Source: Leptolyngbya sp. FACHB-261
GTDB taxonomy: Bacteria > Cyanobacteriota > Cyanobacteriia > FACHB-261
Assembly: GCF_014696065.1 (NCBI RefSeq)
Contig: NZ_JACJPL010000026.1
Location: forward strand, 186,001 to 250,000
Reading direction: 5' to 3'
Length of the DNA: 64,000 nucleotides
Shown: piece by piece, positions 31,667 to 53,220 of the stretch
Numbering within the stretch: the first letter of the stretch is position 1
How the letters are laid out: each line of letters opens with the position of its first letter
Made by a program: the position numbers and the translations under genes
The notes under the pieces: generated by a model
Database searches by the model: none
The model's input: the letters and a program-made list of their open reading frames with translations, nothing else
Told to the model about the DNA's origin: nothing

Positions 31667-32281
31667 CTACTCAGTAGCATAAACTTCGCATCGGATAGAA
31701 CTTAGTGGTAATCCGTTGGTGGGTGGGGGCATTGTGCAAACCGAGCCAACCCATAAAACTGGCATTTCAGCCCGCAATTCAATATAATCCCCTGCTTGAG
31801 ATACTGGCGGCTCAACCCGCCAAGAACCATCACTTCGATGCGGCATGTTCATAAACGGATTGAGGCAGGACGAAGGGATCAATAGCTGTGGTGATAATCC
31901 AAGTAGCCTAAGTTCTGCTTCTAACACCTCCTTACACCCTGGTTGATCATGCCCTAAAAATCGATTGAAGTCATGAGAGCAAAACCCACCTGTCCATTCA
32001 TGCACTCCACAAGTATCAGCCGTAATTGTCCACAAAGGACGCATTCGCTGGGTGTAAAGCTTATCTTCAGCAGAGAGCTTCCATGCTTCTTTGACAAATA
32101 GCGAGTATATCAAATCACAACACTCGGTTGGATCGTCTCGATGAAATGAAGAGAAGTCAAAAACTTGCTGTCCTTGTACATCAATGATACGAAGAGTTTG
32201 ACCTGCCTCTAGCGTCCCATGCGCTCCTTGCCCCGGCTCAACTGTAATGGACTGAATCGGTGTGGGTGTCCGTGGGGTCAT
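31667..32281 (-). CDS. DUF1989 (urea-carboxylase-associated) family protein
   Basis: About 204 residues. Hallmarks are LRIIDVQGQQVFDFSSFHRD, the Cys/His cluster in ITADTCGVHEWTGGFCSHDF, NPFMNMP and AGDYIELRAEMPVLW. DUF1989 includes the paired carboxyguanidine deiminase subunits CgdA/CgdB of guanidine degradation, formerly called urea-carboxylase-associated proteins. A single subunit without a carboxylase gene gives no pathway here. ATG at 32281 fits the domain. It forms a one-gene cassette with an attC at each side. A second DUF1989 domain is fused to GcvT at 50552. Confidence 0.82.
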   Translation of the reverse strand: MTPRTPTPIQSITVEPGQGAHGTLEAGQTLRIIDVQGQQVFDFSSFHRDDPTECCDLIYSLFVKEAWKLSAEDKLYTQRMRPLWTITADTCGVHEWTGGFCSHDFNRFLGHDQPGCKEVLEAELRLLGLSPQLLIPSSCLNPFMNMPHRSDGSWRVEPPVSQAGDYIELRAEMPVLWVGSVCTMPPPTNGLPLSSIRCEVYATE

Positions 32282-32347
32282 TTTCAGGTGATGAGGTTTA
32301 GCTCTGTAATGACAACTTCTGACTACTATCCTACAGATCACTCAGCG

Positions 32348-37881: not shown

Positions 37882-38874
37882 TTGTGTGGCATTGCAGGGG
37901 TAATCTATCGCAACCCAACAACCGAGCGCTCTCTCGGTTCTGATCTGCTCACTTTGGTTCGACCATTGGAAAGTCGAGGCCCAGATTCCTGCGGCGTTGC
38001 CTTGTATCGAGGCGATCTAGCTGCTCACCAAGTCAAATTAATGCTGTTTATTGAGCAGCGATTGGCTGAACCTGGGACTGGCGCAGCTTTGCAGCAATGG
38101 TTGGCGCAGTACGCCCAAGGCGAAGCCTTTGAGCCGATTGGCAGCAGTCATCGCCTCATTCTGAGCCTGAACCAGGCCAACGGCCACAGAACTCAAATCA
38201 GTTTGAGAGAACTTAGAACGGCCCTGCAGGACAAGTTTCCGCAGGTGACCGTGATGAGCACCGGCCAGATGCTGGAAATTTACAAATCTGTGGGCTCGGT
38301 GCAGCACTTGACCCAAGATTATGGTCTAGAGAAATTTGCCGGTAGCCACGGCATTGGTCACACGCGCATGGCAACAGAATCGGTGGTGGATACTGACCAC
38401 TGCCATCCGTTCACTGCCGCCGAAGATTTAGCCGTGGTTCATAACGGCCAAATCTCTAATTACTACCGCCTCAGAGCCAATCTGGAGCGAGCCGGCGCTG
38501 TATTTGAAACCGCTAACGATTCTGAGGCCATTGGCCATTACCTGCGCTTCCAATTTTTGCAAGGCAAATCATTAGAAGAAGCCCTAGCCAACCTGGGCAA
38601 AGACTTTGATGGCACCTACACCATTCTGGTTGCCACCCGCGATAAAGTTGCCCTGGCGCGGGATAAGTTTGCGGCTAAACCGGCAGTGATTTACGAATCC
38701 GCCGAGATGGTTGCGATTGCTTCGGAATATCGCGCCTTTCTCAACTTGCCCGGTTTTGATGCCAACGCCACAATTCGCGAACCGGATGCAGGCGAAGTCA
38801 ATGTTTGGCCGGTTTTGAATGTTGCACAGACAGCGCCGTCTATGCCGGAAATCGTGTCTGGAGTGGGAGCATGA
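37882..38874 (+). CDS. mgsA: N-methylglutamate synthase subunit A-like (class II glutamine amidotransferase; MgsA/GlxB)
   Basis: 330 residues. Class II (Ntn) amidotransferase: the chain begins MCGIAGVIYR, so Cys2 is the N-terminal nucleophile; other landmarks are LESRGPDSCGVALY, GHTRMATESVVDTDHCHPF and LAVVHNGQISNYYRLRA. The start must be TTG at 37882, with AGGAGGG upstream, since Cys must follow the initiator. In MgsABC and Glx enzymes this subunit corresponds to the glutaminase part of glutamate synthase and handles gamma-glutamyl amides. The stop overlaps mgsB by ATGA. Opens the mgsABC-gmaS set. Confidence 0.85.
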   Translation: MCGIAGVIYRNPTTERSLGSDLLTLVRPLESRGPDSCGVALYRGDLAAHQVKLMLFIEQRLAEPGTGAALQQWLAQYAQGEAFEPIGSSHRLILSLNQANGHRTQISLRELRTALQDKFPQVTVMSTGQMLEIYKSVGSVQHLTQDYGLEKFAGSHGIGHTRMATESVVDTDHCHPFTAAEDLAVVHNGQISNYYRLRANLERAGAVFETANDSEAIGHYLRFQFLQGKSLEEALANLGKDFDGTYTILVATRDKVALARDKFAAKPAVIYESAEMVAIASEYRAFLNLPGFDANATIREPDAGEVNVWPVLNVAQTAPSMPEIVSGVGA

Positions 38875-39587
38875 GCGAGCAGGTTCTCCTGGATCAGGTA
38901 GTTTTGGACTGCGCCGATTTCAGCACCCGCGAAATCAATCACCAGCTCAAAACTCTGGCCGCTGAAGGCATTACGCAAGTCGAATTGCTCAACCCCGCTG
39001 GACGGCACAATCTAGCCGTGGGGGTCAATGCGCCGCTCAAGATTCGCTTCCGGGGTGCGGTGGGGTACTACTGCGGCGGCTTGAGCGATGGCGTTGAGAT
39101 CGAGGTCTTGGGCTCTTGCGGCTGGTCGGTGGGCGAAAACTTGATGTCAGGCAGCATTACGGTGCAGGGCAATGCCTCGGCCAATGCTGGCGCTACGGCC
39201 CACGGTGGCAAGATCTGCATTTTGGGCAACGCGGGTCCGCGTGCGGGGATTTCCCTCAAAGGCGCGACTCTAATTGTCACCGGCAATGTCGGTTACAGCA
39301 GCGCCTTTATGATGCAGCAGGGCCGCTTCATTATCTGTGGCAATGCCGGTCCCAGTTTGGGCGATTCGATTTACGATGGCGAGATTTTTGTGGGCGGTGA
39401 GATTGATTCTCTCGGGGCGGATGCACGCCTGGAGCCACTGACTGAAGAAGATTGGCATAGACTCAAAGCTGACCTAAACCCCCTGGGCCTGAGCGCTGAG
39501 CAATGCAACTTCAAAAAGATCGTCTGCGCTCAGGAACTCTATCATTTTAAGGCGAAGGATTTTTCCAAATGGAAAGACGCGTACTAA
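38871..39587 (+). CDS. mgsB: N-methylglutamate synthase subunit B-like (GltB C-terminal-type beta-helix; MgsB/GlxC)
   Basis: 238 residues of right-handed beta-helix character with glycine-rich coils: EVLGSCGWSVGENLMSGSIT, GNASANAGATAHGGKICILG, GNAGPRAGISLKG and GNAGPSLGDSIYDGEIFVGG. This GXGXG domain is the C-terminal part of the glutamate synthase large subunit and a separate subunit in N-methylglutamate synthase. Start ATG at 38871 overlaps the mgsA stop. It overlaps mgsC by 19 bp, implying fixed stoichiometry. Confidence 0.88.
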   Translation: MSEQVLLDQVVLDCADFSTREINHQLKTLAAEGITQVELLNPAGRHNLAVGVNAPLKIRFRGAVGYYCGGLSDGVEIEVLGSCGWSVGENLMSGSITVQGNASANAGATAHGGKICILGNAGPRAGISLKGATLIVTGNVGYSSAFMMQQGRFIICGNAGPSLGDSIYDGEIFVGGEIDSLGADARLEPLTEEDWHRLKADLNPLGLSAEQCNFKKIVCAQELYHFKAKDFSKWKDAY

Positions 39588-40876
39588 AGACGAGCAGCAC
39601 GTTCAGCCCAGAGGTGATCGATGCTATTCAGGAGCGAGCAGAATTAGGTCGCTATATTATTCGCGGCTATGGGGCACTGCGCAATGTGCCTCGCCTGGAT
39701 GATTTGGTATTTTTAACTGCTTCTTTGACTCGCTTCCCCTTAGAAGGCTATCGAGAAAAGTGCAATACCAAAACCTTGTTGGGCACTCGTTGCGCCAAGC
39801 GTCCGGTTGAGTTAGATGTCCCGATTACGATTGCCGGGATGAGCTTTGGGGCCCTCTCGCGCAATGCTAAAGTTGCGCTAGGCAGAGCGGCAACTCTTCT
39901 AGGCACCTCTACCACAACTGGCGATGGCGGCATGCTGGCGGCTGAGCGCGAGGCCTCATCAAAATTGGTCTATCAATGTTTGCCTTCCCGCTACGGGTTT
40001 AACCCCAAAGATCTTAAGCAGGCAGATGCGATTGAGATCGTAATTGGTCAAGGGGCAAAACCGGGCGGCGGTGGCCTTTTGTTGGGGCAAAAAGTCAACA
40101 AGGTTGTGGCCGGTATGCGCACCTTGCCGGAGGGCGTGGATCAGCGTTCGCCGTCGCGTCACCCCGACTGGATTGGACCGGATGACTTAAAAATTAAGAT
40201 CGAAGAGTTGCGCGAAGCCACGGATTGGGAAATCCCGATTTACGTCAAAATGGGCGCGACTCGGGTCAAAGACGATGTGAAGTTAGCGGTCAAATCTGGT
40301 GCTGATGTCATCGTGCTAGATGGCATGGAGGGCGGCACTGCTGCTACCCAGAGCATCTTTCAAGAGCACTCCGGCATTCCCACGCTACCGGCCCTAGTCC
40401 AGGCGGTCGAGGCGCTGCAAGAAGCTGGCGTTTATGGCCAGGTGCAACTAGTGATTTCTGGCGGCATTCGCTCGGGTCCCGATGTGGCTAAGGCCTTAGC
40501 TTTGGGTGCTGACGCGGTCAGCATTGGCACGGCCAGTTTGATTGCTATGGGCTGCAACAAGCCGGTTTACATTGAGGACTACGAAAAACTAGGCACAGAG
40601 CCCCACCATTGTCACCATTGCCATACGGGGCTGTGTCCAGTTGGCATTGCCACCCAAGACGAAGATCTGATGGCTCGTCTGCCGGTTGAGGAGGCGACGA
40701 TTTATGTTGCCAACTATCTGCAATCGCTAGTCATGGAATTGCAGAGTTTGACTCGTTCTTGTGGCAAGTCGGATGTGCACAACCTGGAGCGGGAAGACTT
40801 GGTAGCTCTGACGCTCGAAGCCTCGGCAATGGCGAAACTGCCTTTAGCGGGCACAGATTTCGTGATGGGGCAATAA
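39569..40876 (+). CDS. mgsC: N-methylglutamate synthase subunit C-like (FMN/FeS glutamate-synthase domain; MgsC/GlxD)
   Basis: 435 residues, the FMN-binding barrel of glutamate synthase: ITIAGMSFGALSRNAKVALG, GQGAKPGGGGLLLGQKV, IVLDGMEGGTAATQSIFQEH and SGGIRSGPDVAKALALGAD. A cysteine cluster (HHCHHCHTGLCPVGIATQ) would hold a 3Fe-4S centre. It makes the amino-acid product from the gamma-glutamyl donor and a 2-oxoacid, or transfers a methylamino group. With MgsA and MgsB it forms the complete synthase, split into three genes as in methylotrophs and in the rhizobial glx cluster. Confidence 0.9.
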   Translation: MERRVLKTSSTFSPEVIDAIQERAELGRYIIRGYGALRNVPRLDDLVFLTASLTRFPLEGYREKCNTKTLLGTRCAKRPVELDVPITIAGMSFGALSRNAKVALGRAATLLGTSTTTGDGGMLAAEREASSKLVYQCLPSRYGFNPKDLKQADAIEIVIGQGAKPGGGGLLLGQKVNKVVAGMRTLPEGVDQRSPSRHPDWIGPDDLKIKIEELREATDWEIPIYVKMGATRVKDDVKLAVKSGADVIVLDGMEGGTAATQSIFQEHSGIPTLPALVQAVEALQEAGVYGQVQLVISGGIRSGPDVAKALALGADAVSIGTASLIAMGCNKPVYIEDYEKLGTEPHHCHHCHTGLCPVGIATQDEDLMARLPVEEATIYVANYLQSLVMELQSLTRSCGKSDVHNLEREDLVALTLEASAMAKLPLAGTDFVMGQ

Positions 40877-41292
40877 ATGTAAATTGTCGTAGCCCTAATG
40901 CCGAAATGATGCATTCTGTAGGGGCAGTGTCTTGTGCCTGCCCTGCCAGTTTTATAATTTCAATAGATATAATCGCTACCCATTGGCCCCTCCCAACCGC
41001 CCCTTGGCAAGGATAGGTGCCGCAGACAGTGGGGTTTTGATTTAGCTCTCGTTGAGAGAATGGATATAATCCCTAAGCTGTCATAATTCTTTGCTTACAT
41101 TCGCGTTTCTATGCAAGTCTTTGCTGGTACTAATCTCGCGTCGCTTTTGTAGAAAATCTGGATGGTTTTAGCTAAATTCTGGCACTCAAAATCATTGCGA
41201 TTCGCCCAAGTTGCTTGCAAGTAGCTTTGGATACAAACTTGCATCAACAAAATTGATTTACTCTGGGCAAAAAGCTATCTGGAGTCGCAGCA
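40877..41292. other. Intergenic before gmaS: hairpin repeat copy and NtcA-type promoter
   Basis: Holds the third copy of the GC-rich repeat (40985-41038) and the NtcA-type promoter annotated separately. No gene. Confidence 0.6.
41221..41264 (+). promoter_or_regulatory. NtcA-activated type promoter (GTA-N8-TAC and TAN3T)
   Basis: GTA at 41221-41223, eight bases, TAC at 41232-41234: a perfect NtcA box. A TAN3T -10 element (TACTCT, 41259-41264) follows 24 bp later, close to the canonical 22-23 bp. The gmaS-type gene begins at 41293. NtcA is the cyanobacterial nitrogen regulator responding to 2-oxoglutarate, so the downstream genes are probably induced under nitrogen limitation. Confidence 0.72.
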
Positions 41293-42618
41293 GTGGTTAG
41301 CAGCTTAACCAAGGGCCAAACGCTATCTGAATCGGCGAAAGAGCTGAAGCTTGATTTCTTCCTGGTATCCTACACCGACCTGTTGGGTGGGACCCGAGCT
41401 AAGTTGGTTCCGGCTGCCAAGATTGACTCTGTTGAAACCGATGGCGCTTTTTTCGCACCCTTTGCCTCAAACCTGGGACTTGGACCCGATGCTCACGACA
41501 TCGCCGCGATTCCTGACCCAAATTCACTGACAGTTCTGCCCTGGCAACCAAATGTCGGTTGGCTTGCCAGTGATGCTTATCTGGATGGTGAACCCTTTGT
41601 CGCTTCGCCCCGAGTCATTTTCAAGCAGGTACTCAAGCGTTGCCAAGAGTTGGGCTATAGCTACAAAACTGGGGTAGAAGCTGAGTTTTTCCTGCTGAAA
41701 AAGACAGAGCAGGGGTATCAAATTGCCGATTCGCTAGATGTGGCAGTTCGTCCCTGCTACGACCAGATGAACTTGATGCGGCAGTTTGATTTCATCTCAA
41801 CCATTGTGCGCTACATGGAGCAATTGGGTTGGGAACCCTATCAATGCGACCACGAAGATGCCAATGGCCAATTTGAGCTGAATTGGACCTATAGCGATGC
41901 GCTGACCACTGCTGACCGCCATGTGTTTTTCAAGTACATGGTGAAGACCCTGGCCGAGCAACGGGGCCTAGTGGCAACCTTCATGCCCAAGCCGTTTAGC
42001 AATCTCACGGGCAATGGTGGTCACATCCATATGAGCCTCTGGAACGATGGCGCTAATGCCTTTGGCGATGCTGCCGATGAGCTGGGACTATCGCTATTGG
42101 GCTATGAGTTCCTGGGCGGCATCCTGGCCCACGGGCAGGGCTTGTCTGCTCTGTGCAGCCCTACTGTCACCTCCTACAAGCGATTGGGGGCCACGATGAC
42201 CACCTCCGGTAGCACTTGGAGTCCCCGCTACATTTCCTACGGCGGCAACAATCGTACGCACATGGTGCGCATTCCTGAAGGTGGGCGCTTTGAGTGTCGT
42301 CTGGTCGATGGGGCGGTCAATCTCTATCTAGCTCAGGCCGGTCTGCTAGCCGCTGGTTTAGATGGCTTGGCTCAGCACCTCCAGCCCGGTAAACGCCTAG
42401 ACGAAAACATGTTTACCCGTGGCTCCGAATTTCCCGATCTGCCAACCTTGCCCAATAGCTTGATCGAGGCCTTGAACTTCCTGGAGCAGGACGCGTTGCT
42501 GATGGCAACCTTGGGTGAATTGGGTGCCAGAACTTTCTTGGACTTCAAGCATCAAGAATGGAATGCTTACAATGCGATGGTCAGCCCCTGGGAGATGGAG
42601 CAGTACATTAACTGCTGA
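41293..42618 (+). CDS. gmaS: Gamma-glutamylmethylamide synthetase / type III glutamine synthetase-like (GmaS/GlnT)
   Basis: 441 residues in the GlnT/GMAS branch of glutamine synthetases: FFLVSYTDLLGGTRAKLVPA, GVEAEFFLLKK, CDHEDANGQFELNW, MPKPFSNLTGNGGHIHMSLW and the ATP/glutamate region NNRTHMVRIPEGGRFECRL. Such enzymes ligate ammonia, methylamine or other small amines to glutamate; the pairing with mgsABC favours gamma-glutamyl-alkylamide synthesis. GTG start, GGAG upstream, directly downstream of an NtcA-type promoter. Ordinary GlnA in cyanobacteria is about 470 residues and differs in the N-terminus. Which amine is used cannot be read from the sequence. Confidence 0.85.
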   Translation: MVSSLTKGQTLSESAKELKLDFFLVSYTDLLGGTRAKLVPAAKIDSVETDGAFFAPFASNLGLGPDAHDIAAIPDPNSLTVLPWQPNVGWLASDAYLDGEPFVASPRVIFKQVLKRCQELGYSYKTGVEAEFFLLKKTEQGYQIADSLDVAVRPCYDQMNLMRQFDFISTIVRYMEQLGWEPYQCDHEDANGQFELNWTYSDALTTADRHVFFKYMVKTLAEQRGLVATFMPKPFSNLTGNGGHIHMSLWNDGANAFGDAADELGLSLLGYEFLGGILAHGQGLSALCSPTVTSYKRLGATMTTSGSTWSPRYISYGGNNRTHMVRIPEGGRFECRLVDGAVNLYLAQAGLLAAGLDGLAQHLQPGKRLDENMFTRGSEFPDLPTLPNSLIEALNFLEQDALLMATLGELGARTFLDFKHQEWNAYNAMVSPWEMEQYINC

Positions 42619-42704
42619 TCCTGTTGCGGCTATGCCATCGCTGTGTGGAAGGTTAGTCCACCTAACCGACAACAGCTCAAAAGACCTCGTTCAAGAGATT
42701 CTCT

Positions 42705-44651
42705 ATGACGATTGCCCGTGAGTTGCCCCAAACGATCAGTGCATCTATCTCGATTCAGCACCCGCTCGATCCGCTAACGCCCGAGGAAATTACGGCGGCA
42801 GTTAGCGTGGTCCGCAAGGCCAAATCCTTAAGCGACCGCGTGCGTTTCGCGACCGTCACCCTGCAAGAACCGGACAAGAGCCTTGTGCTCAATTTCCAAG
42901 CGGGTGACTCGATTGAGCGCGAGGCTTTTCTGGTCATTCTGGATAACACTACCGGGTCAACTTATGAGGCAATCGTCTCCCTGAGCACTAGCGCTGTCGT
43001 TAGCTGGGAGGTCATCCCGAATGTACAGCCCTCGATTCTGTTGGATGAATTCATCGAGTGTGAGCAAGCGGTCAAAGCCAGCCCCGAGTTTCAAGCGGCA
43101 CTAGCCAAACGGGGGATCACTGACCCAGATTTGGTCATGGTCGATCCCTGGTCAGCGGGCAATTTTGGCATGACCGACGAGCAGGGACAGCGCTTGTCAC
43201 GGGCCTTGTGTTGGGTGCGCTCTAGCCCTACTGATAATGGCTATGCGCGACCGATTGAAGGTGTGATTCCGGTAGTGGATCTGAACACCATGACCGTGCT
43301 CCGGGTCGAAGATTACGGCGTGGTGCAATTGCCACCGGAAGCTGGTAACTACACCACCGAGTTTGTGCAGGATTTGCGCCCCGATCTCAAACCGCTAGAG
43401 ATTGTGCAGCCCCAAGGCCCCAGTTTTGAGATCGATGGGTATCAAGTTCGCTGGCAGAAGTGGCAATTTCGCATTGGCTTTACGCCGCGCGAAGGGCTGG
43501 TGCTTTACACGCTTGGCTATGAAGATCAGGGGCGTTTGCGACCGATTTTGTATCGAGCTTCCCTGGCTGAAATGGTAGTGCCCTATGGCGATCCCAGGCC
43601 GCACCACTTCCGTAAGAACGCCTTTGATGTCGGTGAATACGGAGTGGGTACGCTGGCTAACTCGCTCACCTTAGGTTGCGATTGCCTGGGCGAGATTCGC
43701 TACTTTGATGCGTTCATGACCGATAGTCGCGGTCAGGCCGTCACAATTAAAAATGCCGTTTGTCTGCACGAAGAAGACTATGGCATTCTCTGGAAACACA
43801 TGGACTGGCGCACCAATCAAACCGAAGTGCGTCGCTCCCGCCGTCTGGTAGTTTCGTTCATTGCCACGGTTGGCAATTACGAATATGGCTTTTTCTGGTA
43901 TCTCTATCAGGACGCCTCAATCCAGTACGAAGTGAAGCTTACCGGCATCGTCAATACCACGAGCATGGAGCCGGGTGAGACCTCCAAATATGGCACGCTG
44001 ATTGCCCCTCAACTGAATGCGCCTATTCACCAGCACTTCTTTAATGTTCGTCTGGACATGAGCGTCGATGGTGAGTCGAATTCGGTTTACGAGGTCAATA
44101 CCGAAGCCGAACCTATGGGTCCTGATAACCCCTATGGCAATGCTTTCTTTGCCAAATCAACGCTGCTAGAAACTGAACAAGAAGCTCAGCGTGTGATTGA
44201 ACCGATGACCGGCCGTTACTGGAAGATTGTGAACCCATCTGTGCACAACCGGCTGGGTCAGGCTGTAGCTTACAAACTGGTTCCTGGCGAGAACATTCTG
44301 CCGTTCGCGCGTCCAGAATCCAGTCTGCTCAAGCGAGCAGCGTTTACAACCAAGCATCTGTGGGTGACACCCTATCAGCTGCAGGAACGCTTTCCCGCAG
44401 GCGACTACCCCAACCAGCATCCCGGTGGCGAGGGCTTACCCGCCTGGACCCAGGCCAATCGCGCTATTGCCGACACTGATGTGGTTGTGTGGTACAGCTT
44501 TGGTCACCTCCATGTGCCCCGACCCGAAGATTGGCCGGTCATGCCCACCTCCTATGTTGGTTTCATGTTGAAGCCGGTAGGTTTCTTTGAGGCCAGTCCG
44601 GCTCTAGATGTACCGCCCTCAGCGCCTAAACATAAAAGCTGTTGCGATTAG
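42705..44651 (+). CDS. Copper/topaquinone primary amine oxidase
   Basis: 648 residues, the full CuAO length without the optional N-terminal D1 domain. The cofactor Tyr lies in TVGNYEYGFFW (N-Y-D/E consensus, converted to TPQ), the catalytic base Asp in RYFDAFMTDS, and copper ligands in PIHQHFFNV and the C-terminal FGHLHVPRPEDWPVMP. The reaction is RCH2NH2 + O2 + H2O to aldehyde, NH3 and H2O2. No signal peptide, so it is cytosolic. It starts 86 bp after gmaS in the same direction and can provide ammonium for gmaS or the amidotransferase. Substrate range (methylamine, ethylamine, aromatic amines) is not predictable. Confidence 0.93.
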   Translation: MTIARELPQTISASISIQHPLDPLTPEEITAAVSVVRKAKSLSDRVRFATVTLQEPDKSLVLNFQAGDSIEREAFLVILDNTTGSTYEAIVSLSTSAVVSWEVIPNVQPSILLDEFIECEQAVKASPEFQAALAKRGITDPDLVMVDPWSAGNFGMTDEQGQRLSRALCWVRSSPTDNGYARPIEGVIPVVDLNTMTVLRVEDYGVVQLPPEAGNYTTEFVQDLRPDLKPLEIVQPQGPSFEIDGYQVRWQKWQFRIGFTPREGLVLYTLGYEDQGRLRPILYRASLAEMVVPYGDPRPHHFRKNAFDVGEYGVGTLANSLTLGCDCLGEIRYFDAFMTDSRGQAVTIKNAVCLHEEDYGILWKHMDWRTNQTEVRRSRRLVVSFIATVGNYEYGFFWYLYQDASIQYEVKLTGIVNTTSMEPGETSKYGTLIAPQLNAPIHQHFFNVRLDMSVDGESNSVYEVNTEAEPMGPDNPYGNAFFAKSTLLETEQEAQRVIEPMTGRYWKIVNPSVHNRLGQAVAYKLVPGENILPFARPESSLLKRAAFTTKHLWVTPYQLQERFPAGDYPNQHPGGEGLPAWTQANRAIADTDVVVWYSFGHLHVPRPEDWPVMPTSYVGFMLKPVGFFEASPALDVPPSAPKHKSCCD

Positions 44652-44857: not shown

Positions 44858-46288
44858 ATGGCTATCAGCACAAGGTCAGGGGCTGCCTCTGGCCTTAGAT
44901 CAGAGTGTCTTTCTTTCCGAGAGACACTGGCTCAGTCAATTGCAAATATTGCACCTACCGCAACTCCTACGATCAACGCACCTCTAGTGTTCGCCAGTGC
45001 AGGTAAGGGAATGTGGCTGGCTTACTTGATTGCGACGATTGGCCTGGTGTTAGTCGGGATGAGTATCAATCAGTTTGCTCGTCGCTCCGCATCGCCAGGT
45101 TCACTGTATGCCTATATTGCCAGAGGTCTAGGACCCACCGTGGGTGTTCTTTCTGGTTGGGGGCTGGTGATTGCTTATTTGCTAACGGCGATGGCAGTTC
45201 TTTGCGGCTTCTCAAACTACAGCAATGTCTTAGTGAGCCTGCTGGGTTTTCAGATTGCACCGATTTTCTTGTTCGCGCTCTGCGCGGGTCTTTGCTGGTA
45301 TTTTGCCTACAAAGATATTCAGCTATCCACCGTACTCATGCTCGGCCTTGAGGCTGTTTCCATTGGGATGATTCTCATCCTGGCCATCGTTGTTTTGGCA
45401 GGTCATGGCTTCACGATTGATCTGTCTCAGCTGAGCCTTGAGGGAGCTTCGTCTGAGGGCATCCGTTTGGGTCTGGTTCTCGCCGTCTTTAGTTATGTCG
45501 GCTATGAGAGCGCTACAGCGTTAGGTGACGAAGCCAAAGAGCCCTTAACCACGATTCCTCGGGCCGTGGTTCTCAGCGCCGTTCTGGCAGGAACTTTCTT
45601 TGTGATCATCTCCTACGTTGAGGTGCTGGGCTTCAGCGGTTCTGACATCCCTCTAGATAAGAGCGATGCGCCCCTGAGTGTCCTAGCTAATTTAGCGGGA
45701 GTGGGCTTCTTCGGTCCGCTCATTTCGATTGGGGCATTGATTAGCTTCTTCGCTTGTGCCTTGGCTAGCATCAATGCGGGCGGACGGATTCTGTTTTCGA
45801 TGGCCCGCCACGGTATTTTCCATTCCTCAATGGGACAGCCCCATCGTTTAAATGAAACGCCGCACATTGCTGTGACTATGTCATCGCTGATCGTCTTTTT
45901 GATTCCCGCCTCAATGTCCCTATTTGGGGTCAAGGTGCTAGAGATTTACGGCTACTTGGGAACCATTGCCACTTACGGTTTTCTGATGACCTACATTCTG
46001 ATCTCAGTTGCAGCTCCTGTCTACCTTTATCGCGAACGGGCTCTAAAGATCGGTGACATTGTGCTCGCCGTTCTGTCTGTGCTGTTCATGCTTGTTCCGG
46101 TGGTCGGCAGTGTTTATCCTACGCCGCCATCGCCGTTCAATGTATTCCCCTATTTGTTCTTGATGTTTCTGCTGGTTGGTGCAACCTGGTTCTTCTTGTT
46201 ACGCCTTCACTCACCTGAAATTATTGACGAGATGGAGGGCGAACTTGAAGCGATCCACACTCGGTTCAGTGATCTAAAGAAAGTCTAA
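44858..46288 (+). CDS. APC-superfamily amine/amino acid permease
   Basis: 476 residues with about twelve hydrophobic segments. N-terminal half: SIANIAPTATPTINAPLVFA (unwound helix 1 region), SINQFARRSASPGSLYAYIA and GLGPTVGVLSGW; then YVGYESATALGDEAKEPLTT, a standard APC motif in helix 6 and its following loop. This class imports amino acids, ethanolamine, putrescine and other amines. It is placed between the amine oxidase and the ammonium transporter, so it is the likely importer of the locus's substrate. C-terminal tail is short and cytosolic. Confidence 0.9.
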   Translation: MAISTRSGAASGLRSECLSFRETLAQSIANIAPTATPTINAPLVFASAGKGMWLAYLIATIGLVLVGMSINQFARRSASPGSLYAYIARGLGPTVGVLSGWGLVIAYLLTAMAVLCGFSNYSNVLVSLLGFQIAPIFLFALCAGLCWYFAYKDIQLSTVLMLGLEAVSIGMILILAIVVLAGHGFTIDLSQLSLEGASSEGIRLGLVLAVFSYVGYESATALGDEAKEPLTTIPRAVVLSAVLAGTFFVIISYVEVLGFSGSDIPLDKSDAPLSVLANLAGVGFFGPLISIGALISFFACALASINAGGRILFSMARHGIFHSSMGQPHRLNETPHIAVTMSSLIVFLIPASMSLFGVKVLEIYGYLGTIATYGFLMTYILISVAAPVYLYRERALKIGDIVLAVLSVLFMLVPVVGSVYPTPPSPFNVFPYLFLMFLLVGATWFFLLRLHSPEIIDEMEGELEAIHTRFSDLKKV

Positions 46289-47007
46289 AGACAGACCTTT
46301 TCTAAGTTTTAGCTGTCAAAGCTGCTTAGGCAGGAAGCTCAAGCCTTAGTGGTGCTAGGTTGAGGCGCTATGTTGAACAGTAATCTGGCCCCTGCTGCAA
46401 ACCCAGCAATACGTCGAAATCCCCTGCTCATAAGCTTTCTGAGTTACTTATGAACTAATCGTGACATTTGCCAGAAACCTGTGTTATTACATACCTGTGT
46501 GGCCCCGTTGGCTAGGTAAGTGTAGAGCGCAGGTGTGGGTGTCATTGCCCTGACAAACCATTACTTGTCGGTTATTTTAAGCCTCGTCTTCTCTATCTCG
46601 TTCTTTTGAAAAATTGGAAGGTTCACGGCTTCTCAAAACTTAAGTAGCCCTGTTGACAAACCTGTCATAACGAGTGATATAACCTCTATTGACTCTTAAG
46701 ATTGCCCTCCCCCGGTATCTCTGCATTTTCTAGAGCTGCGCTTGCTAGTTTAAGCGTCCTTGAGACTATTGCAATTTGCTGTACGGCTCTCTTCAGGGTC
46801 CGTTTGTTTACTATCGCTGGCACGATAGTAATCGGCGTTGATACCAACGGTTATAGAGACTGTTTGTTGTAGAAAGTTTGGCCTAGGTTGGTGTGAGACT
46901 AGCGGCTTCCAGAGCTGGCTAGTTTCGGTATAGGTGGCAACAAATTATGTCCAGAAGGTTGTGTAGCGTACACGCAGATTGTTGGGAACTTTAGGACGGA
47001 CTTGGAC
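46289..47007. promoter_or_regulatory. Long intergenic region upstream of the ammonium transporter
   Basis: About 720 bp without a gene. Contains TTGACA (46653-46658) and TATAAC (46678-46683) with 19-bp spacing, and the inverted repeat TACTATCG-N6-CGATAGTA (46809-46830), a candidate operator. No GTA-N8-TAC NtcA box was found here by eye. Confidence 0.45.
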
Positions 47008-48387
47008 ATGGAGCCAGAAGCTCAGAAATTTTTAGCGACGTTTGTCTCAGAGTCCTATTACTATTGGGCCTCTGTTTTCATGATCATCATTCACGCTGGT
47101 TTCCTGGCATATGAGGGAGGAGCTTCCCGGTCCAAAAATGTCTTGGCCACGATGGTCAAGAATCTGCTCACCCTGTCCAGTGTTGGCCTAGCTTTCTACT
47201 TTTTTGGCTGGTGGGTTTATAACTCATTTGCCTTATGGCCGATGAACGGCGGTATTCTCGGCCCCTGGACTAATTTCGACGCTAGTGAATCTCTTAAGGC
47301 CATTCAGCCCTATGTAGAAGGCTCCTATCCCTGGTCGTCAGCGCTAGCACCCAACACCGCAGACAATATAACCGGCGTATTCTGGTTTGCCTTTGCCCTG
47401 TTTTCCATGACCACAGCTTCGATCCTGTCGGGCGCGCTGATTGAGCGCGTCAAGATTGGGGCTTACATCGTGTTGTCGATTGTACTGGGTTCCTTTGCCT
47501 GGGTCATTGCTGCTTCCTGGGGTTGGAGTGCCTTTGGTTGGTTCTTGCCTAAGCTGGGTTACCACGATTTCGGTTGCTCCGCAGTCGTGCATGGCTTGTC
47601 TGGCTTCTTCACCTTAGGCGTTCTGCTGAACTTAGGTCCTAGGATTGGTAAGTTCGATGCTCAAGGACGGCCCAGACAAATTCTGCCCCACAATCTGCCG
47701 CTCACGATGGTCGGCTTGATGCTGATCTATGTGGGTTTTTATGCCTTTTTAGCGGCTTGTCTGATCTTCTTGCCGGGCTACACCGTAGAGACCACGATCT
47801 ACAACACGCCCATGACCCTCTCCTCCTTGGGCGTGAGCACCACCCTGGCATTGGCTTCAGGCATCATCGGCTCCTATATCTCCTCGAAAGCCGATCCCTT
47901 CTTCACGATTTCGGGTGGACTGGCTGGCATTATTTCCGTCAGTGCTGGTCTCGACTTGTACCATCCGGCGCTGGTGATTGTGGTTGCTTTCATTGGTGGC
48001 TACACTATGCCTTTGGTTGCCGGTTTTGTTGAGAAAGTAGGGATTGATGATCCAGTCGGTGCGCTCGGTGTGCACGCCTATTGTGGTTTGCTCGGCGTGA
48101 TGATGGTTGGCATCGTGGGAACAGGCTATGTGCAAGGTGAGGGCATTCCTCCCACTAGCTTTACCGGCCAATTTATTGGTGGCTTCATTTGTTTGATCAT
48201 CCTGGGCTTCATCCCTGGTTACGTCGTGAGTTTCATTCTTAAGAAAATCAACCTGCTGCGCGTATCTAGAGAAGAAGAGATTGAGGGTTTAGATCTCTCA
48301 GATCTGGGTGTCCCAGGTTATCCCGAAGGCTCGGTCAGCAGTTTGCCGACTCTCCCTTCAGACACTGCTCAAACCGTCAACCACTGA
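47008..48387 (+). CDS. amt: Divergent ammonium transporter (Amt family)
   Basis: 459 residues, eleven hydrophobic helices. The twin-His pore pair is conserved: His in GCSAVVHGLSG and His in GALGVHAYCGLLG, as is the Asp before the first (YHDF). The usual DFAGGTVVH is replaced by DFGCSAVVH, and the periplasmic recruitment segment differs from cyanobacterial Amt1. The protein belongs to a side branch found with mgs-type clusters and may carry ammonium or methylammonium. Start at ATG 47008 (TTG 47002 possible). No GlnK/PII gene follows. Confidence 0.9.
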   Translation: MEPEAQKFLATFVSESYYYWASVFMIIIHAGFLAYEGGASRSKNVLATMVKNLLTLSSVGLAFYFFGWWVYNSFALWPMNGGILGPWTNFDASESLKAIQPYVEGSYPWSSALAPNTADNITGVFWFAFALFSMTTASILSGALIERVKIGAYIVLSIVLGSFAWVIAASWGWSAFGWFLPKLGYHDFGCSAVVHGLSGFFTLGVLLNLGPRIGKFDAQGRPRQILPHNLPLTMVGLMLIYVGFYAFLAACLIFLPGYTVETTIYNTPMTLSSLGVSTTLALASGIIGSYISSKADPFFTISGGLAGIISVSAGLDLYHPALVIVVAFIGGYTMPLVAGFVEKVGIDDPVGALGVHAYCGLLGVMMVGIVGTGYVQGEGIPPTSFTGQFIGGFICLIILGFIPGYVVSFILKKINLLRVSREEEIEGLDLSDLGVPGYPEGSVSSLPTLPSDTAQTVNH

Positions 48388-48402
48388 TTGCGAGAGAAAC
48401 AA

Positions 48403-48837
48403 ATGACGACGAGTCCATTCAAAACCTCAGAGGAGTTCCTGAAGGCGAAGGGACCGATTTACACCTTTGCGGATAACCCCACAATCATTAGCATTCTGAT
48501 TGGGGTGAGTATCTTGATCCTCCTCTACTTCATTTACTCCTCCTACACGATTAAAAAAGGCGCTCCAGCCCCCCAAAATCCTGCTGTTCTTGGTCTATTA
48601 ATCGCCACCAGTGCGCTTTCTTTTGTCAATTCGGCTTACACCAATAACATTGACAAAGGCCGCGAGACAGCAAAGGGCACTCTCAGCGCTCAAGTTGTGC
48701 CAGCGAAGGGCAAACCGTCTGGCCTAGCCTCACTGTTCGCGTTGCTTACAGCTGGGATCTCTTATACAGGTAGCAGCAGCTTGCGAGCGAAAGGTAAGTC
48801 TAAAGCACGCCGGGGTTCCCGTCGGGGACGGCCCTAA
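48403..48837 (+). CDS. Small membrane protein of unknown family downstream of amt
   Basis: About 144 residues, ATG 15 bp after the amt stop, so co-translated. One strong transmembrane helix (IISILIGVSILILLYFIYSS), a second weaker hydrophobic segment (PAVLGLLIATSALSFVNSA), a further one near residue 115, and a highly basic tail (KGKSKARRGSRRGRP). It has no family I recognise. Its tight link with the divergent Amt suggests an accessory subunit or regulator; PII proteins bind Amt at the cytosolic face and a basic tail could serve a similar purpose. This role is an inference. Confidence 0.7.
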   Translation: MTTSPFKTSEEFLKAKGPIYTFADNPTIISILIGVSILILLYFIYSSYTIKKGAPAPQNPAVLGLLIATSALSFVNSAYTNNIDKGRETAKGTLSAQVVPAKGKPSGLASLFALLTAGISYTGSSSLRAKGKSKARRGSRRGRP

Positions 48838-49014
48838 CTAGCCTTTCACTAGGTCAGTTTGCCTTCTTTAAAGTCTGTAGTGATCTAAATTTCGAGGCTG
48901 GAGAATCCGGGGCGACCTTAGCTTAAGACGATCCAGCCTTTGAAGTGAGGATGTGCTTTCAATCGGCACGCGATTAACTCCTCAAGCCATTTTAGTAACA
49001 CGTTGAAGAGAGCT

Positions 49015-50448
49015 ATGAGTCACAAAAAGTGGGGTTCAGAAGATTTTTGGGGCTTGGATTATGACTTCGATCCCCAGTGGTTGCTAACCCCAGGTCAGCA
49101 AGCTTTACAAGCAAAACTAATCGATGTTTGCGCCAGCACGCTTCGCCCAAACGCGATTGAGTCTGACCGGAATTTAGTTTATCCTCGCGGGAATTTCAAG
49201 GCTCTGGCCTCACTGGGTTTGTTGGGTCTTTTTGTACCGAAGGAATGGGGCGGTTTAGGTGAGAACCATACTTGCGCCGCAATGGTGGTTGAAACCATTG
49301 CTCGCTATGGTTGTCCCAGCACTGCCATGTGCTACACCATGCATCTGGGCGCTGTTGCTGCTGCTTTATTCCGGGCTCACGACAATCCTGAACTTCAGCA
49401 ATTGGTCAAGCGCCTGGATCAGGATGTGCTGATCGGGACGCTGTCCTACTCCGACCCGGAGACAGGCTCCCACTTCTGGTATCCAGTTTCCTCAAAAGCA
49501 GAACGAGTTTCTGCGGGTTGGCAAGTTTTTAAGAAAGCGTCCTGGACAACCTCAGCAGGCTTTGCTGACTGGTACATTGTCCAAACCACCAGCCCAGAAT
49601 TTGCCGGCAATTATTCTGACCTGTCCTGCTTCCTGATCTACGGCGACGAAGTCAAAGCCGAACCTCAAAAGTGGGACGCTTTGGGTTTGCGCGGTAACCA
49701 GTCGGGCACGCTGTTGGTGGATGGGGTCACCGTCCCGGCTGAGCGGATGGTGGGGCCAAAAGGTGACGGCACTTCCTCAAATGATGAGATTGTTGACCCA
49801 TTCTTCCTGCTGTGTTCTTCTGCCTGCTGGAACGGCATTGCGATGGGAGCGATTGACATTGGCAAGCGCCATGTAACCCGCAAGAAGCACGTCGATGTCG
49901 GCATGCGAGTTGCTGATTACCCTACTATTCAGGACTACTTTGGCGAAGGCATCATTGATACCAATGCCTGCCGTTCGTTCACGTTTTCAATGGGCAAGTT
50001 GATGGATGATTTGACCAACAACTGTGATTGGTCACTCCATCGAGATTTGACAGCTTTACCCCGCTCTGTCTATTTGCCTTGGTACTGGCAGATCAAATTC
50101 TCGGCAGCCAAGAACGTCGCTCAGGTCTGTGACAAAATGCTCCATGCCTGCGGTGGTTCTGGCTTCAAGAAAGACATGGAGATCGAGCGCTATCTGCGAG
50201 ATGGCAAGGCGGGTTGGGTAATGGGACCCACTAATGAAGTGCTGCGTCAGTTTGTGGGCAAGCTCGCATTGCTGGGCATGGAGTCTCTGGACTACTGGAA
50301 CCAAGTCGTCAACGAGCGAGTTCTACAAAACGAACTCAAAAAGCTAGATGTTGAGGCCAAGAAAAAGCTAGCAGAGAGTTTGCTAGCACAAGTGGCTGAG
50401 GAAGAAGTTCAAACAGATCAAAAGACATTGCTGAGCAGTACCGTTTGA
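49015..50448 (+). CDS. Acyl-CoA-dehydrogenase-fold flavoprotein lacking the catalytic Glu
   Basis: About 477 residues with ACAD architecture: N-terminal helical part (LGLFVPKEWGGLGENHTCAA), middle beta domain (LIGTLSYSDPETGSHFWYPV and KKASWTTSAGFADWY) and C-terminal helices with ACGGSGFKKDMEIERYLRDG. The usual base, the Glu of IYEGT, aligns with Gly (KAGWVMGPTNEVLR), and the alternative isovaleryl-CoA-type position has Phe. So it is probably not a beta-oxidation enzyme; oxidases and monooxygenases (nitroalkane oxidase, DszC-like) share the fold. In this locus it may oxidise an amine or N-alkylamino acid. Start ATG at 49015. Confidence 0.85.
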   Translation: MSHKKWGSEDFWGLDYDFDPQWLLTPGQQALQAKLIDVCASTLRPNAIESDRNLVYPRGNFKALASLGLLGLFVPKEWGGLGENHTCAAMVVETIARYGCPSTAMCYTMHLGAVAAALFRAHDNPELQQLVKRLDQDVLIGTLSYSDPETGSHFWYPVSSKAERVSAGWQVFKKASWTTSAGFADWYIVQTTSPEFAGNYSDLSCFLIYGDEVKAEPQKWDALGLRGNQSGTLLVDGVTVPAERMVGPKGDGTSSNDEIVDPFFLLCSSACWNGIAMGAIDIGKRHVTRKKHVDVGMRVADYPTIQDYFGEGIIDTNACRSFTFSMGKLMDDLTNNCDWSLHRDLTALPRSVYLPWYWQIKFSAAKNVAQVCDKMLHACGGSGFKKDMEIERYLRDGKAGWVMGPTNEVLRQFVGKLALLGMESLDYWNQVVNERVLQNELKKLDVEAKKKLAESLLAQVAEEEVQTDQKTLLSSTV

Positions 50449-50551: not shown

Positions 50552-52714
50552 ATGTCTTTCCAGACGCTTGCAGTTGAGCCGGGTTCTGTTCGCACCTTTT
50601 ACATTCCTGCTGGTGAGTTGTTCAGTGTTGTTGATCCAGAGGGAGGGCAATCCTTTGCCCTAGAGCTGGGAACCGGTGGTCCTTTAGAAGTCATTTCTAG
50701 TTCAGCCTTGGCCTTGGTCGCTGGAACGCAACTAACCCAGCCTGTCTGTGTGGATAGCCAGGAGCCCAATACGGGTTGCACCCTGCGTGCCCTGGCTGAT
50801 GCCAACCTTCAGGTTGCCGTTCTGGCTCAGAAGCCTGCGTTAACCCCAGGAGCTTTTACACCAGCCACCCCTTTAAAAGTCACTGCTCCCCTGAATGATT
50901 TGCCGGCTCCTTTGGGTGAGGTTCTGGCGGAGTATCGAATTGAGCCTGCGACTGCGATTGCTTACTCGGTGCAGGCGGGACAATATATTCAAATCATCGA
51001 TGTCGAAGGCAGTCAATGCTCTGATTTCTTAGCCTTTGCCGGTGAACATTTCGAACAGGAATTAGATGGCACCGCTACTCGGACTTTGAATGGTATCGCC
51101 GTCCCTCAAGCTGGTTTGCATAGCAAATATTTTTCCCAGCGCTTGCAGCCAATGTTTGAGGTAATTCAAGATACCTGTGGTCGCCATGATAGTTTTCTGC
51201 TGGCCTGCACCGATCGCTATTACGAAGACGCTGGCTACCCTGGTCACGTCAGTTGCAGCCAGAATTTCAACTTGGCTTTAGCCAGCCACGGCGTAACGCC
51301 TCGACCCGGTTGGCCGGCGGTCAATTTCTTCTTCAATACAGCTTCAGATGCGCAGGGCACGATTGCTTCAGGCGAATCTTGGTCGCGTCCTGGCGATTAT
51401 GTTTTACTGCGAGCTAGCCAGGATTTATTGTGCGCTAGTTCCTCTTGCCCGGATGACATTGACCCAGCCAACGGCTGGCAACCTACAGCAATTCATGTCC
51501 GGATTTATGCCGCTGATGCTGGCTTTGAAAGTGCCTTGGGCAGACGGGTTTCTCCTGATCTACCCGTGCGCCTCACCCGTGGCAGTGCGTTCACGCCGCG
51601 CATTCGAACCCTGACCGATTATTTGGTGGAGTACAACGGTTTCTGGGTTCCCAATAGCTTTGCTAATTATGGCCCCCAGGCTGAATATTGGGCCTTGCGC
51701 GAACGGGCGGTCTTGCTGGATCTTTCAGCCCTGCGTAAGTTTGAAGTGTTTGGGCCAGATGCCGAACAGTTGTTGCAAATGGCCTTCTCGCGCAATGTTG
51801 CAGCGTTAGCGATTGGCCAGTCTGCCTACGGCTGTTTGCTCAATCCGCATGGCGGCATTATTGATGATGGCATTGTGTTTCGCTTGAGCGAGACGGCCTA
51901 TCGCTATGTTGGCAATTGTGATACCGATGGCGATTGGTTACGGCGATTAGCTCAGCAGCAGCAATTGCGAGTTGGGGTGCGCTCATCCAGCGACTATCTG
52001 CACAACTTAGCGATTCAGGGGCCGCTGTCGCGCGATGTTTTGCGCCCCTTGGCAAAGTTAGATCCTGGTTTTGCTGCCAACTTATTAGATGAACTCGGTT
52101 ACTTCCGATTCGCCACTGGCACGGTTGCTGATATCCCAGTTTTGATTTCCCGTACGGGCTATACGGGAGAACTGGGCTATGAGTTGTTTGTGCATCCTGG
52201 GCAGGGCGAAGCGCTGTGGGACGCATTGCTACAGGCAGGGGAGCCTGAAGGTCTCATGCCGATGGGAATGTTAGCATTGGAGCGGGCTCGAATTGAAGCA
52301 GGGCTTCTAGCGGCGGGCCGTGAATTTGATGATTTGATTTCTCCCTACCAGGCCGGTATCAGCTGGGCAGTTGCCTTGAAGAAACCGGAATTAATTGGTA
52401 AAGCAGCGCTGGAAAAACTGAAGGAGCGGCCACCCAAAGTAGCCGTTGGTCTGGTGTTAGAGGGCAATGAAGTTGCCGAACATGGTCAATGTATTTATCC
52501 GGTTGAGGAACGCTGGCGAGTGGGTGTAATCACCAGTGCAACCTTCTCACCCATTTTGAACAAAAGTATTGCTCTGGCTCAAGTTGCGCCTGAATATGCA
52601 ACCCCAGGCAGTCAATTAGAAGTCGGGTTTGTTGATGGCATGAAACGCCGGGTTAAAGCCACGGTCGGGCCGTTAGCTGCTTATGATCCAACCAAGAGTC
52701 GGGTGCGAGCATGA
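50552..52714 (+). CDS. DUF1989-GcvT fusion protein
   Basis: 720 residues. Residues 1-110 form a short cupin-like DUF1989-related part; 125-335 is a full DUF1989 domain (YIQIIDVEGSQCSDFLAFAG, DTCGRHDSFLLACTD, ESWSRPGDYVLLRAS, CSSCPDD read as SSCPDDIDPANGW); 345-715 is a GcvT-like aminomethyltransferase (VLLDLSALRKFEVFGPDAEQ, SRTGYTGELGYELFV and GLLAAGREFDDLISPYQAG). GcvT folds bind tetrahydrofolate and accept C1 groups from amines; the same fold forms the C-terminal half of sarcosine oxidase alpha and MgdC. DUF1989 relatives cleave C-N bonds of carboxyguanidine. Overlaps the SoxG-like gene (ATGA). Confidence 0.88.
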   Translation: MSFQTLAVEPGSVRTFYIPAGELFSVVDPEGGQSFALELGTGGPLEVISSSALALVAGTQLTQPVCVDSQEPNTGCTLRALADANLQVAVLAQKPALTPGAFTPATPLKVTAPLNDLPAPLGEVLAEYRIEPATAIAYSVQAGQYIQIIDVEGSQCSDFLAFAGEHFEQELDGTATRTLNGIAVPQAGLHSKYFSQRLQPMFEVIQDTCGRHDSFLLACTDRYYEDAGYPGHVSCSQNFNLALASHGVTPRPGWPAVNFFFNTASDAQGTIASGESWSRPGDYVLLRASQDLLCASSSCPDDIDPANGWQPTAIHVRIYAADAGFESALGRRVSPDLPVRLTRGSAFTPRIRTLTDYLVEYNGFWVPNSFANYGPQAEYWALRERAVLLDLSALRKFEVFGPDAEQLLQMAFSRNVAALAIGQSAYGCLLNPHGGIIDDGIVFRLSETAYRYVGNCDTDGDWLRRLAQQQQLRVGVRSSSDYLHNLAIQGPLSRDVLRPLAKLDPGFAANLLDELGYFRFATGTVADIPVLISRTGYTGELGYELFVHPGQGEALWDALLQAGEPEGLMPMGMLALERARIEAGLLAAGREFDDLISPYQAGISWAVALKKPELIGKAALEKLKERPPKVAVGLVLEGNEVAEHGQCIYPVEERWRVGVITSATFSPILNKSIALAQVAPEYATPGSQLEVGFVDGMKRRVKATVGPLAAYDPTKSRVRA

Positions 52715-53220
52715 CGAGTGCCTCAATTGCGCAGCAGAATTGGCTGGACCTGACTGGCTATCAGTTATGGGATTTAGTTGGGATTGATGGTTTGCAGGTT
52801 ACTACCAGCTTGGTAGGCGATCTAGCGGGGAGAATTGCTCCATTTCAATCTTTTGAGACCACGCTGGATCAGCAAGCCTGCTCGGTGTTGCGTTTGTGTG
52901 AGGGCAATTTTCGCTTTGGTTTGCAGGGCGATTCTACTTTTTTTGAGCAGGTTAATTTGGCAGACCAACGGGTTTGGCTGCGTCGCTGCAAGCAAATGAC
53001 GGCGATTGCTATGCCTGAAGCTGAAGGTTTAGCGCTATTGCCAAAAATTGCAGTTGCTAAACTGCCGCACCGTTTGGAGGGACTGCAACCTAACTGTGCA
53101 GCTCCTAGCCGGATTGATGGCATCTCTGTTTTGATTTGGCGGCATCTTTACCAGGGTCAAGCAGTGTTTGAACTGCAAATGGCGGCTAAGGATGCTGCGA
53201 CAATTCGAGCAATCTGTTGA
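52711..53220 (+). CDS. Sarcosine oxidase gamma-like (SoxG/MgdD family) subunit
   Basis: 169 residues, ATG overlapping the stop of the DUF1989-GcvT gene. Landmarks of the SoxG/GcvT-like family are FRFGLQGDSTFFEQVNLADQ-type barrel segments, RIDGISVLIWRHLYQGQAVF and a C-terminal amphipathic helix AAKDAATIRAIC. In heterotetrameric sarcosine oxidase and N-methylglutamate dehydrogenase the gamma subunit packs against the GcvT half of the alpha subunit. No SoxB (beta) or SoxD (delta) gene is present, so the pair here would be a folate-dependent module without the usual flavin dehydrogenase partner. Confidence 0.68.
   Translation: MTSASIAQQNWLDLTGYQLWDLVGIDGLQVTTSLVGDLAGRIAPFQSFETTLDQQACSVLRLCEGNFRFGLQGDSTFFEQVNLADQRVWLRRCKQMTAIAMPEAEGLALLPKIAVAKLPHRLEGLQPNCAAPSRIDGISVLIWRHLYQGQAVFELQMAAKDAATIRAIC

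Follow-up and report, generated by a model that had tools for sequence, protein, structure and literature searches.

The window analyzed here, a stretch of 64,000 nucleotides from the cyanobacterium Leptolyngbya sp. FACHB-261, carries a pair of overlapping genes that probably encodes a two-subunit trimethylamine N-oxide (TMAO) demethylase, with a non-catalytic half-GcvT protein as the small subunit. Judged by its sequence, the fused gene of the pair is the cyanobacterial version of an already known enzyme, TMAO demethylase (Tdm), and the apparently new element is a small second protein that always accompanies Tdm in cyanobacteria, that is, at all 15 loci with downstream DNA; from these observations we infer the substrate, the activity, the formation of a heteromer and the role of the partner. 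The large chain (50552..52714; all features lie on the + strand unless stated otherwise) is a single open reading frame of 720 amino acids, in which Pfam matches place a DUF1989 domain at residues 129-293 (50936..51430; E 2e-49), a GCV_T folate-binding domain at residues 357-606 (51620..52369; E 1e-65) and then a GCV_T_C C-terminal barrel at residues 631-712 (52442..52687; E 2e-15). The partner gene (52711..53220) encodes 169 amino acids, and its ATG overlaps the TGA stop of the Tdm gene in an ATGA (52711..52714). Both the fusion of DUF1989 and GcvT in one chain and the order and overlap of the two genes had been claimed in a sequence-only reading of this DNA, and the domain matches and the sequence bear these claims out.

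The top curated family for the large chain was NF053776 (NCBIfam), trimethylamine N-oxide demethylase, at 861.6 bits, and the nearest solved structures were all of TMAO demethylase (9q59, E 3.6e-188; 9q5l and 9q5a; E about 1e-188 to 1e-186 overall), with 49% identity across the core. The enzyme of Methylocella silvestris likewise combines DUF1989 and GcvT (PMC12560246, which cites Zhu 2014 and 2016 for this demethylase); the fusion is therefore not the new type of enzyme that the sequence-only reading had proposed, because it has already been described as Tdm and its structures have been solved. The score of the window Tdm is below the NF053776 equivalog cut-off of 1100 bits, and the other cyanobacterial members scanned gave 786-852 bits; all seven of the non-cyanobacterial Tdms scanned were above it (1174-1287 bits). 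Because the cut-off is missed, the window Tdm is filed as a member of a diverged sister subfamily and not as an equivalog. The models for UAAP1 and UAAP2 (CgdA/CgdB, urea-carboxylase-associated), proteins that share the DUF1989 fold and the Cys ligands but lack a GcvT domain, scored far lower against the window chain, at 64.4 bits (cut-off 206) and 98.7 bits (cut-off 284.7) respectively, so that the link to carboxyguanidine drawn earlier through CgdA/CgdB is distant and carboxyguanidine itself is unsupported. A second, stand-alone DUF1989 protein encoded in the window (31667-32341, - strand) is UAAP2-like at 88 bits, below the cut-off. For the large chain, AlphaFold2 gave only a fair model (pLDDT 74.5), on which no conclusion rests.

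In M. silvestris Tdm, zinc is bound by C263, C279 and C343, and H276, D198 and D346 are at the active site (PMC12560246). Alignment matched C263/C279/C343, H276, D198 and D345/D346 to C219, C235, C299, H232, D158 and D301/D302 of the window chain, with the stretch from C299 to D302 lying slightly beyond the Pfam boundary of the DUF1989 domain; the two Asp residues mutated to Ala in 9q5a match D158 and D301, and both are kept. These residues were invariant in 17 cyanobacterial sequences except for one D302E, and in 66 other Tdm sequences except for one D301C. The GcvT core (Y426, D438, D439, R534, E540 and E544) was invariant in 83 of the 83 Tdm sequences compared, including D439, which corresponds to the catalytic Asp D96 of Thermotoga maritima GcvT, and E540 of the TGE motif; the loss of folate-site residues that had been named beforehand as a ground for refutation was thus not seen. 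R223 and Y101 of Escherichia coli GcvT align with L576 and F443 of the window chain, and such changes in M. silvestris Tdm have been taken as a loss of tetrahydrofolate (THF) coordination (PMC12560246). However, dimethylglycine oxidase also lacks both the Arg and the Tyr in the alignment, yet has been solved with folate and THF, which makes the argument for lost THF binding in Tdm a weak one.

A scan of one-per-species genomes yielded 80 Tdm loci, spread over cyanobacteria, Obscuribacterales, Proteobacteria and Actinobacteria, and the gene was present in only 3 of 386 genomes drawn evenly across the phylum. At the window locus, an enzyme architecture that was already known turns up in a lineage where it was not expected. 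When 47 sequences were placed in a tree, a long, fully supported branch, with a stem length of 0.67, set the 17 cyanobacterial Tdms apart from the rest, and the window Tdm branched first among them, with a support of only 80 in this quick, midpoint-rooted tree built without bootstrap. One locus (L028) on a contig labelled as a Klebsiella pneumoniae MAG (CAMDGF010000047.1) has genes for both Tdm and the flavin-dependent trimethylamine monooxygenase (Tmm); this Tdm falls among those of Rhodocyclaceae, and the contig is therefore probably mis-binned. A third, DUF1989-like domain at the N-terminus has been called ubiquitous in Tdm (PMC12560246). Residues 1-115 of the window chain (50552..50896) matched the N-domain profile of other Tdms at both ends (E 3.9e-10 as a whole, 2.6e-7 for the best piece) and appear to represent a shortened form of this domain, the middle of which was modelled by AlphaFold2 with low confidence; the other cyanobacterial Tdms, of which the intact ones have 601-643 amino acids, lack the domain altogether. 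The early branching of the window Tdm and its retained N-domain suggest that the partner was gained before the N-domain was lost in cyanobacterial Tdms.

The best evidence for TMAO as the substrate comes from Tmm, the pathway neighbour that makes the substrate of Tdm. A bona fide Tmm gene (cut-off 675 bits) adjoins the pair in the two complete cyanobacterial genomes that have the pair (798 bits at L100 and 770 bits at L005/L101), and Tmm is also a neighbour of Tdm at 31 of 64 non-cyanobacterial loci and at one of the two Obscuribacterales loci. A search of the window genome found no Tmm, and this, together with the long stem branch and with scores under the equivalog cut-off that make a shifted substrate possible, would fit a Tdm-like enzyme from a clade in which a different N-oxide or N-methylated amine is cleaved, with the small subunit reshaping the active site or the path of formaldehyde. 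We consider such a shift unlikely, because the active-site residues are all unchanged and two members of the clade adjoin a bona fide Tmm.

In the window, the place beside Tdm that is held elsewhere by Tmm is taken by a conserved Tdm neighbour (49003..50448), a flavoprotein of the acyl-CoA dehydrogenase (ACAD) family without the usual catalytic Glu. The 13 Tdm-linked orthologues of this protein (in the window and at L006, L007, L008, L009, L010, L015, L018, L032, L041, L042, L044 and L065) come from cyanobacteria, Obscuribacterales, Proteobacteria and Actinobacteria, share 57-88% identity, and have GWVMGP[TS]NE in place of the IYEGTN of acyl-CoA dehydrogenases, a replacement that turns the usual catalytic Glu into Gly. 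The ACAD-like gene and Tmm occurred together at one of 83 loci (one-sided Fisher p 0.014, uncorrected for the relatedness of the loci). The ACAD-like flavoprotein is possibly a replacement for Tmm, which we offer as a lead and not as a result, and is a candidate trimethylamine N-oxygenase or dimethylamine-oxidizing enzyme; a literature search that covered few subscription papers returned nothing on point for a link between ACAD and Tdm.

Upstream, the window encodes further proteins of methylated-amine metabolism. An MgsABC-like trio (37882-38874, about 38868-39587, and 39569-40876) and a type III glutamine synthetase/GmaS-like gene (41293-42618) form one run (37882-44651) with a copper amine oxidase, that is, a primary-amine oxidase (42705..44651; NF008559, 1025 bits, above the cut-off). 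Domain matches identified an APC-type amino acid/amine permease (44858..46288) and an ammonium/methylammonium transporter, Amt (47002-48387), and the Amt gene is followed by a small open reading frame without a Pfam family (48388-48837), which comes after Amt in most cyanobacterial Tdm loci (eight by count; those named are L006, L009, L011, L014-L017, L099 and L101). Two further genes recur beside cyanobacterial Tdm loci (L004/L100, L009, L015 and L101), one for a dioxygenase of the PhyH type and one for a protein resembling family-3 solute-binding proteins. An NMG dehydrogenase (MgdABCD) completing the GmaS/MgsABC-like route was ruled out, because no SoxA-type (alpha) protein carrying the dinucleotide-binding part was found in the window genome, where the best matches to the SoxA model were the GcvT parts of Tdm and GcvT itself. 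An HODM/DmmA-like gene is present on another contig of this genome (C27:237159-237971; L160, L161; 275.6 bits), and no DmmB- or DmmC-like genes were recognized around it by eye. With no SoxA-type NMG dehydrogenase found and the HODM/DmmA-like gene located elsewhere, the route from dimethylamine onward is incomplete on paper.

The partner open reading frame was found downstream of Tdm in 15 of the 15 cyanobacterial loci with downstream DNA, two of the copies being truncated (L009 and L011, both from metagenomes), and in none of the 60 non-cyanobacterial Tdm loci that are followed by 700 bases of DNA or more, counts that are not independent since the loci share descent. Conservation in 15 cyanobacterial loci argues that the pairing is not due to chance. 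At eight of the junctions between the two genes the overlap is ATGA, at one GTGA and at two TAATG; another three have TTGA, where an ATG further on is a possible start, and in one the genes are spaced apart. Among the 386 genomes of the phylum scan, an intact partner was present in the same three genomes as Tdm; a fourth match (L098) is a decayed relic, with a Tdm C-terminus fused directly to a partner N-terminus. Remnants of the methylated-amine cluster adjoin this relic: an ACAD fragment is present, and the Amt and MgsABC-like genes there are still open (L098/L099, G005 contig C125). When 11 non-cyanobacterial Tdm genomes were searched whole with the partner profile, the matches, where there were any, lay only within Tdm-size open frames. 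The partner has no characterised homologue.

Compared over the same pair of loci, the partners are 83% identical and the Tdms 91%, and this faster evolution of the partner, along with the missing catalytic loop and the two truncated metagenome copies, is what would be expected if the enzyme were an ordinary Tdm and the small open reading frame a decaying, functionless duplicate. Such decay is very improbable, given that the partner is kept in every one of these loci across the clade, that nine residues are invariant (D21, G24, L28, R61, N66, F67, R68, W89 and W143), that dN/dS is about 0.3 or less in the closest pair, and that the stop and start codons overlap tightly.

The partner had been called SoxG-like, and this description holds for its fold but not for its sequence. 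The AlphaFold2 model (pLDDT 89) has a half-GcvT fold: it could be superposed on roughly the N-terminal 180 residues of GcvT (1wos; Z 16.1, with 163 residues aligned at 2.9 A) and also matched the gamma chain of sarcosine oxidase (2gag_C; TM 0.65/0.59). By sequence, no Pfam or NCBIfam model matched the 169-amino-acid protein, the Pfam SoxG model (PF04268) found nothing in the window genome, and profile-profile comparison (hhalign) of the partner with SoxG scored 17, with a probability under 1%. All standout matches in single-sequence searches were Tdm chains, aligned at the GcvT half, and the profile-profile score was 71.7 (E 1.8e-10) for the full set of Tdm folate domains, 47-65 for samples of 12 Tdms, 41 for the cyanobacterial Tdm folate domains and 25-28 for GcvT, DMGDH and SoxA. 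On these comparisons we reject an origin of the partner from SoxG, from a general GcvT fragment, for which the scores are far lower, and from a relocated copy of the lost N-terminal domain, since the matches fall in the GcvT half. In all partners, GGxxDD, the six residues that include the catalytic Asp, is deleted and TGE is replaced. The simplest reading of these sequences is that the partner arose as a partial duplicate of Tdm's own folate domain and then lost the catalytic loop, although the two may descend from a common ancestor that was not a Tdm. The proposal of a novel enzyme that depends on folate, uses carboxyguanidine or N-methyl amino acids as substrate and replaces the flavin half of sarcosine oxidase, which the domain content, the SoxG-like fold and the lack of SoxA/NMG dehydrogenase in the genome might suggest, is hardly credible when the fusion is already described as Tdm, the UAAP/Cgd models score so much lower, and the partner resembles Tdm more closely than SoxG.

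For the two-subunit TMAO demethylase that we favor, the large subunit would work like M. silvestris Tdm, with which it shares a single DUF1989-GcvT chain, all zinc and catalytic residues, and neighbours from the methylated-amine pathway, and from which the cyanobacterial form differs in adding a small second subunit and in its N-terminal domain, which the window Tdm apparently has in shortened form and all other cyanobacterial Tdms lack. The zinc site of DUF1989 would split TMAO into dimethylamine and formaldehyde with no external redox, and the GcvT domain could hand the formaldehyde to tetrahydrofolate; this agrees with the flavin-free C-N cleavage, the one-carbon product able to reach folate and the SoxG-like partner predicted from sequence alone. 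The small subunit, apparently derived from Tdm's folate domain, would pack against the large chain in the manner of SoxG and SoxA, and the loss of the catalytic-Asp loop points to a probably structural or regulatory role. Heterotetrameric sarcosine oxidase and N-methylglutamate dehydrogenase similarly have a GcvT-type folate domain (alpha, SoxA C-terminus) and a separate half-GcvT subunit (gamma, SoxG) in the same topology; however, the cyanobacterial pair lacks flavin subunits, and because the partner sequence is nearer to Tdm than to SoxG, the arrangement looks convergent on the sarcosine oxidase alpha/gamma pair. In dimethylglycine oxidase/dehydrogenase, a demethylating domain is likewise joined in one chain to the GcvT folate domain that it feeds, but flavin chemistry stands in place of the zinc DUF1989 domain and there is no small subunit.

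The methylated-amine cluster around the pair (the ACAD-like protein, Amt, the permease, the copper amine oxidase and the GmaS/MgsABC-like genes) points to a likely role in acquiring nitrogen, plus one-carbon units, from methylated amines. More tentatively, cyanobacteria might have evolved a heteromeric TMAO demethylase that uses a duplicate of its folate half, without the catalytic loop, as an obligate subunit in convergence on SoxA/SoxG, and an ACAD-fold N-oxygenase might have supplanted Tmm in many loci; we regard this combination as possible but doubtful. In the literature found, every description of Tdm is of a single-chain enzyme from non-cyanobacterial bacteria, and the search, covering few subscription papers, returned nothing on point for a cyanobacterial Tdm or for an internal Tdm tunnel. 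Whether the folate domain of Tdm is vestigial is disputed (PMC12560246), and a two-subunit Tdm in phototrophs, built from its own domain, would make the role of this domain testable. Cyanobacteria would furthermore become candidate users of TMAO-type nitrogen, and the ACAD-like protein would be a concrete candidate for an unrecognized step in methylated-amine breakdown.
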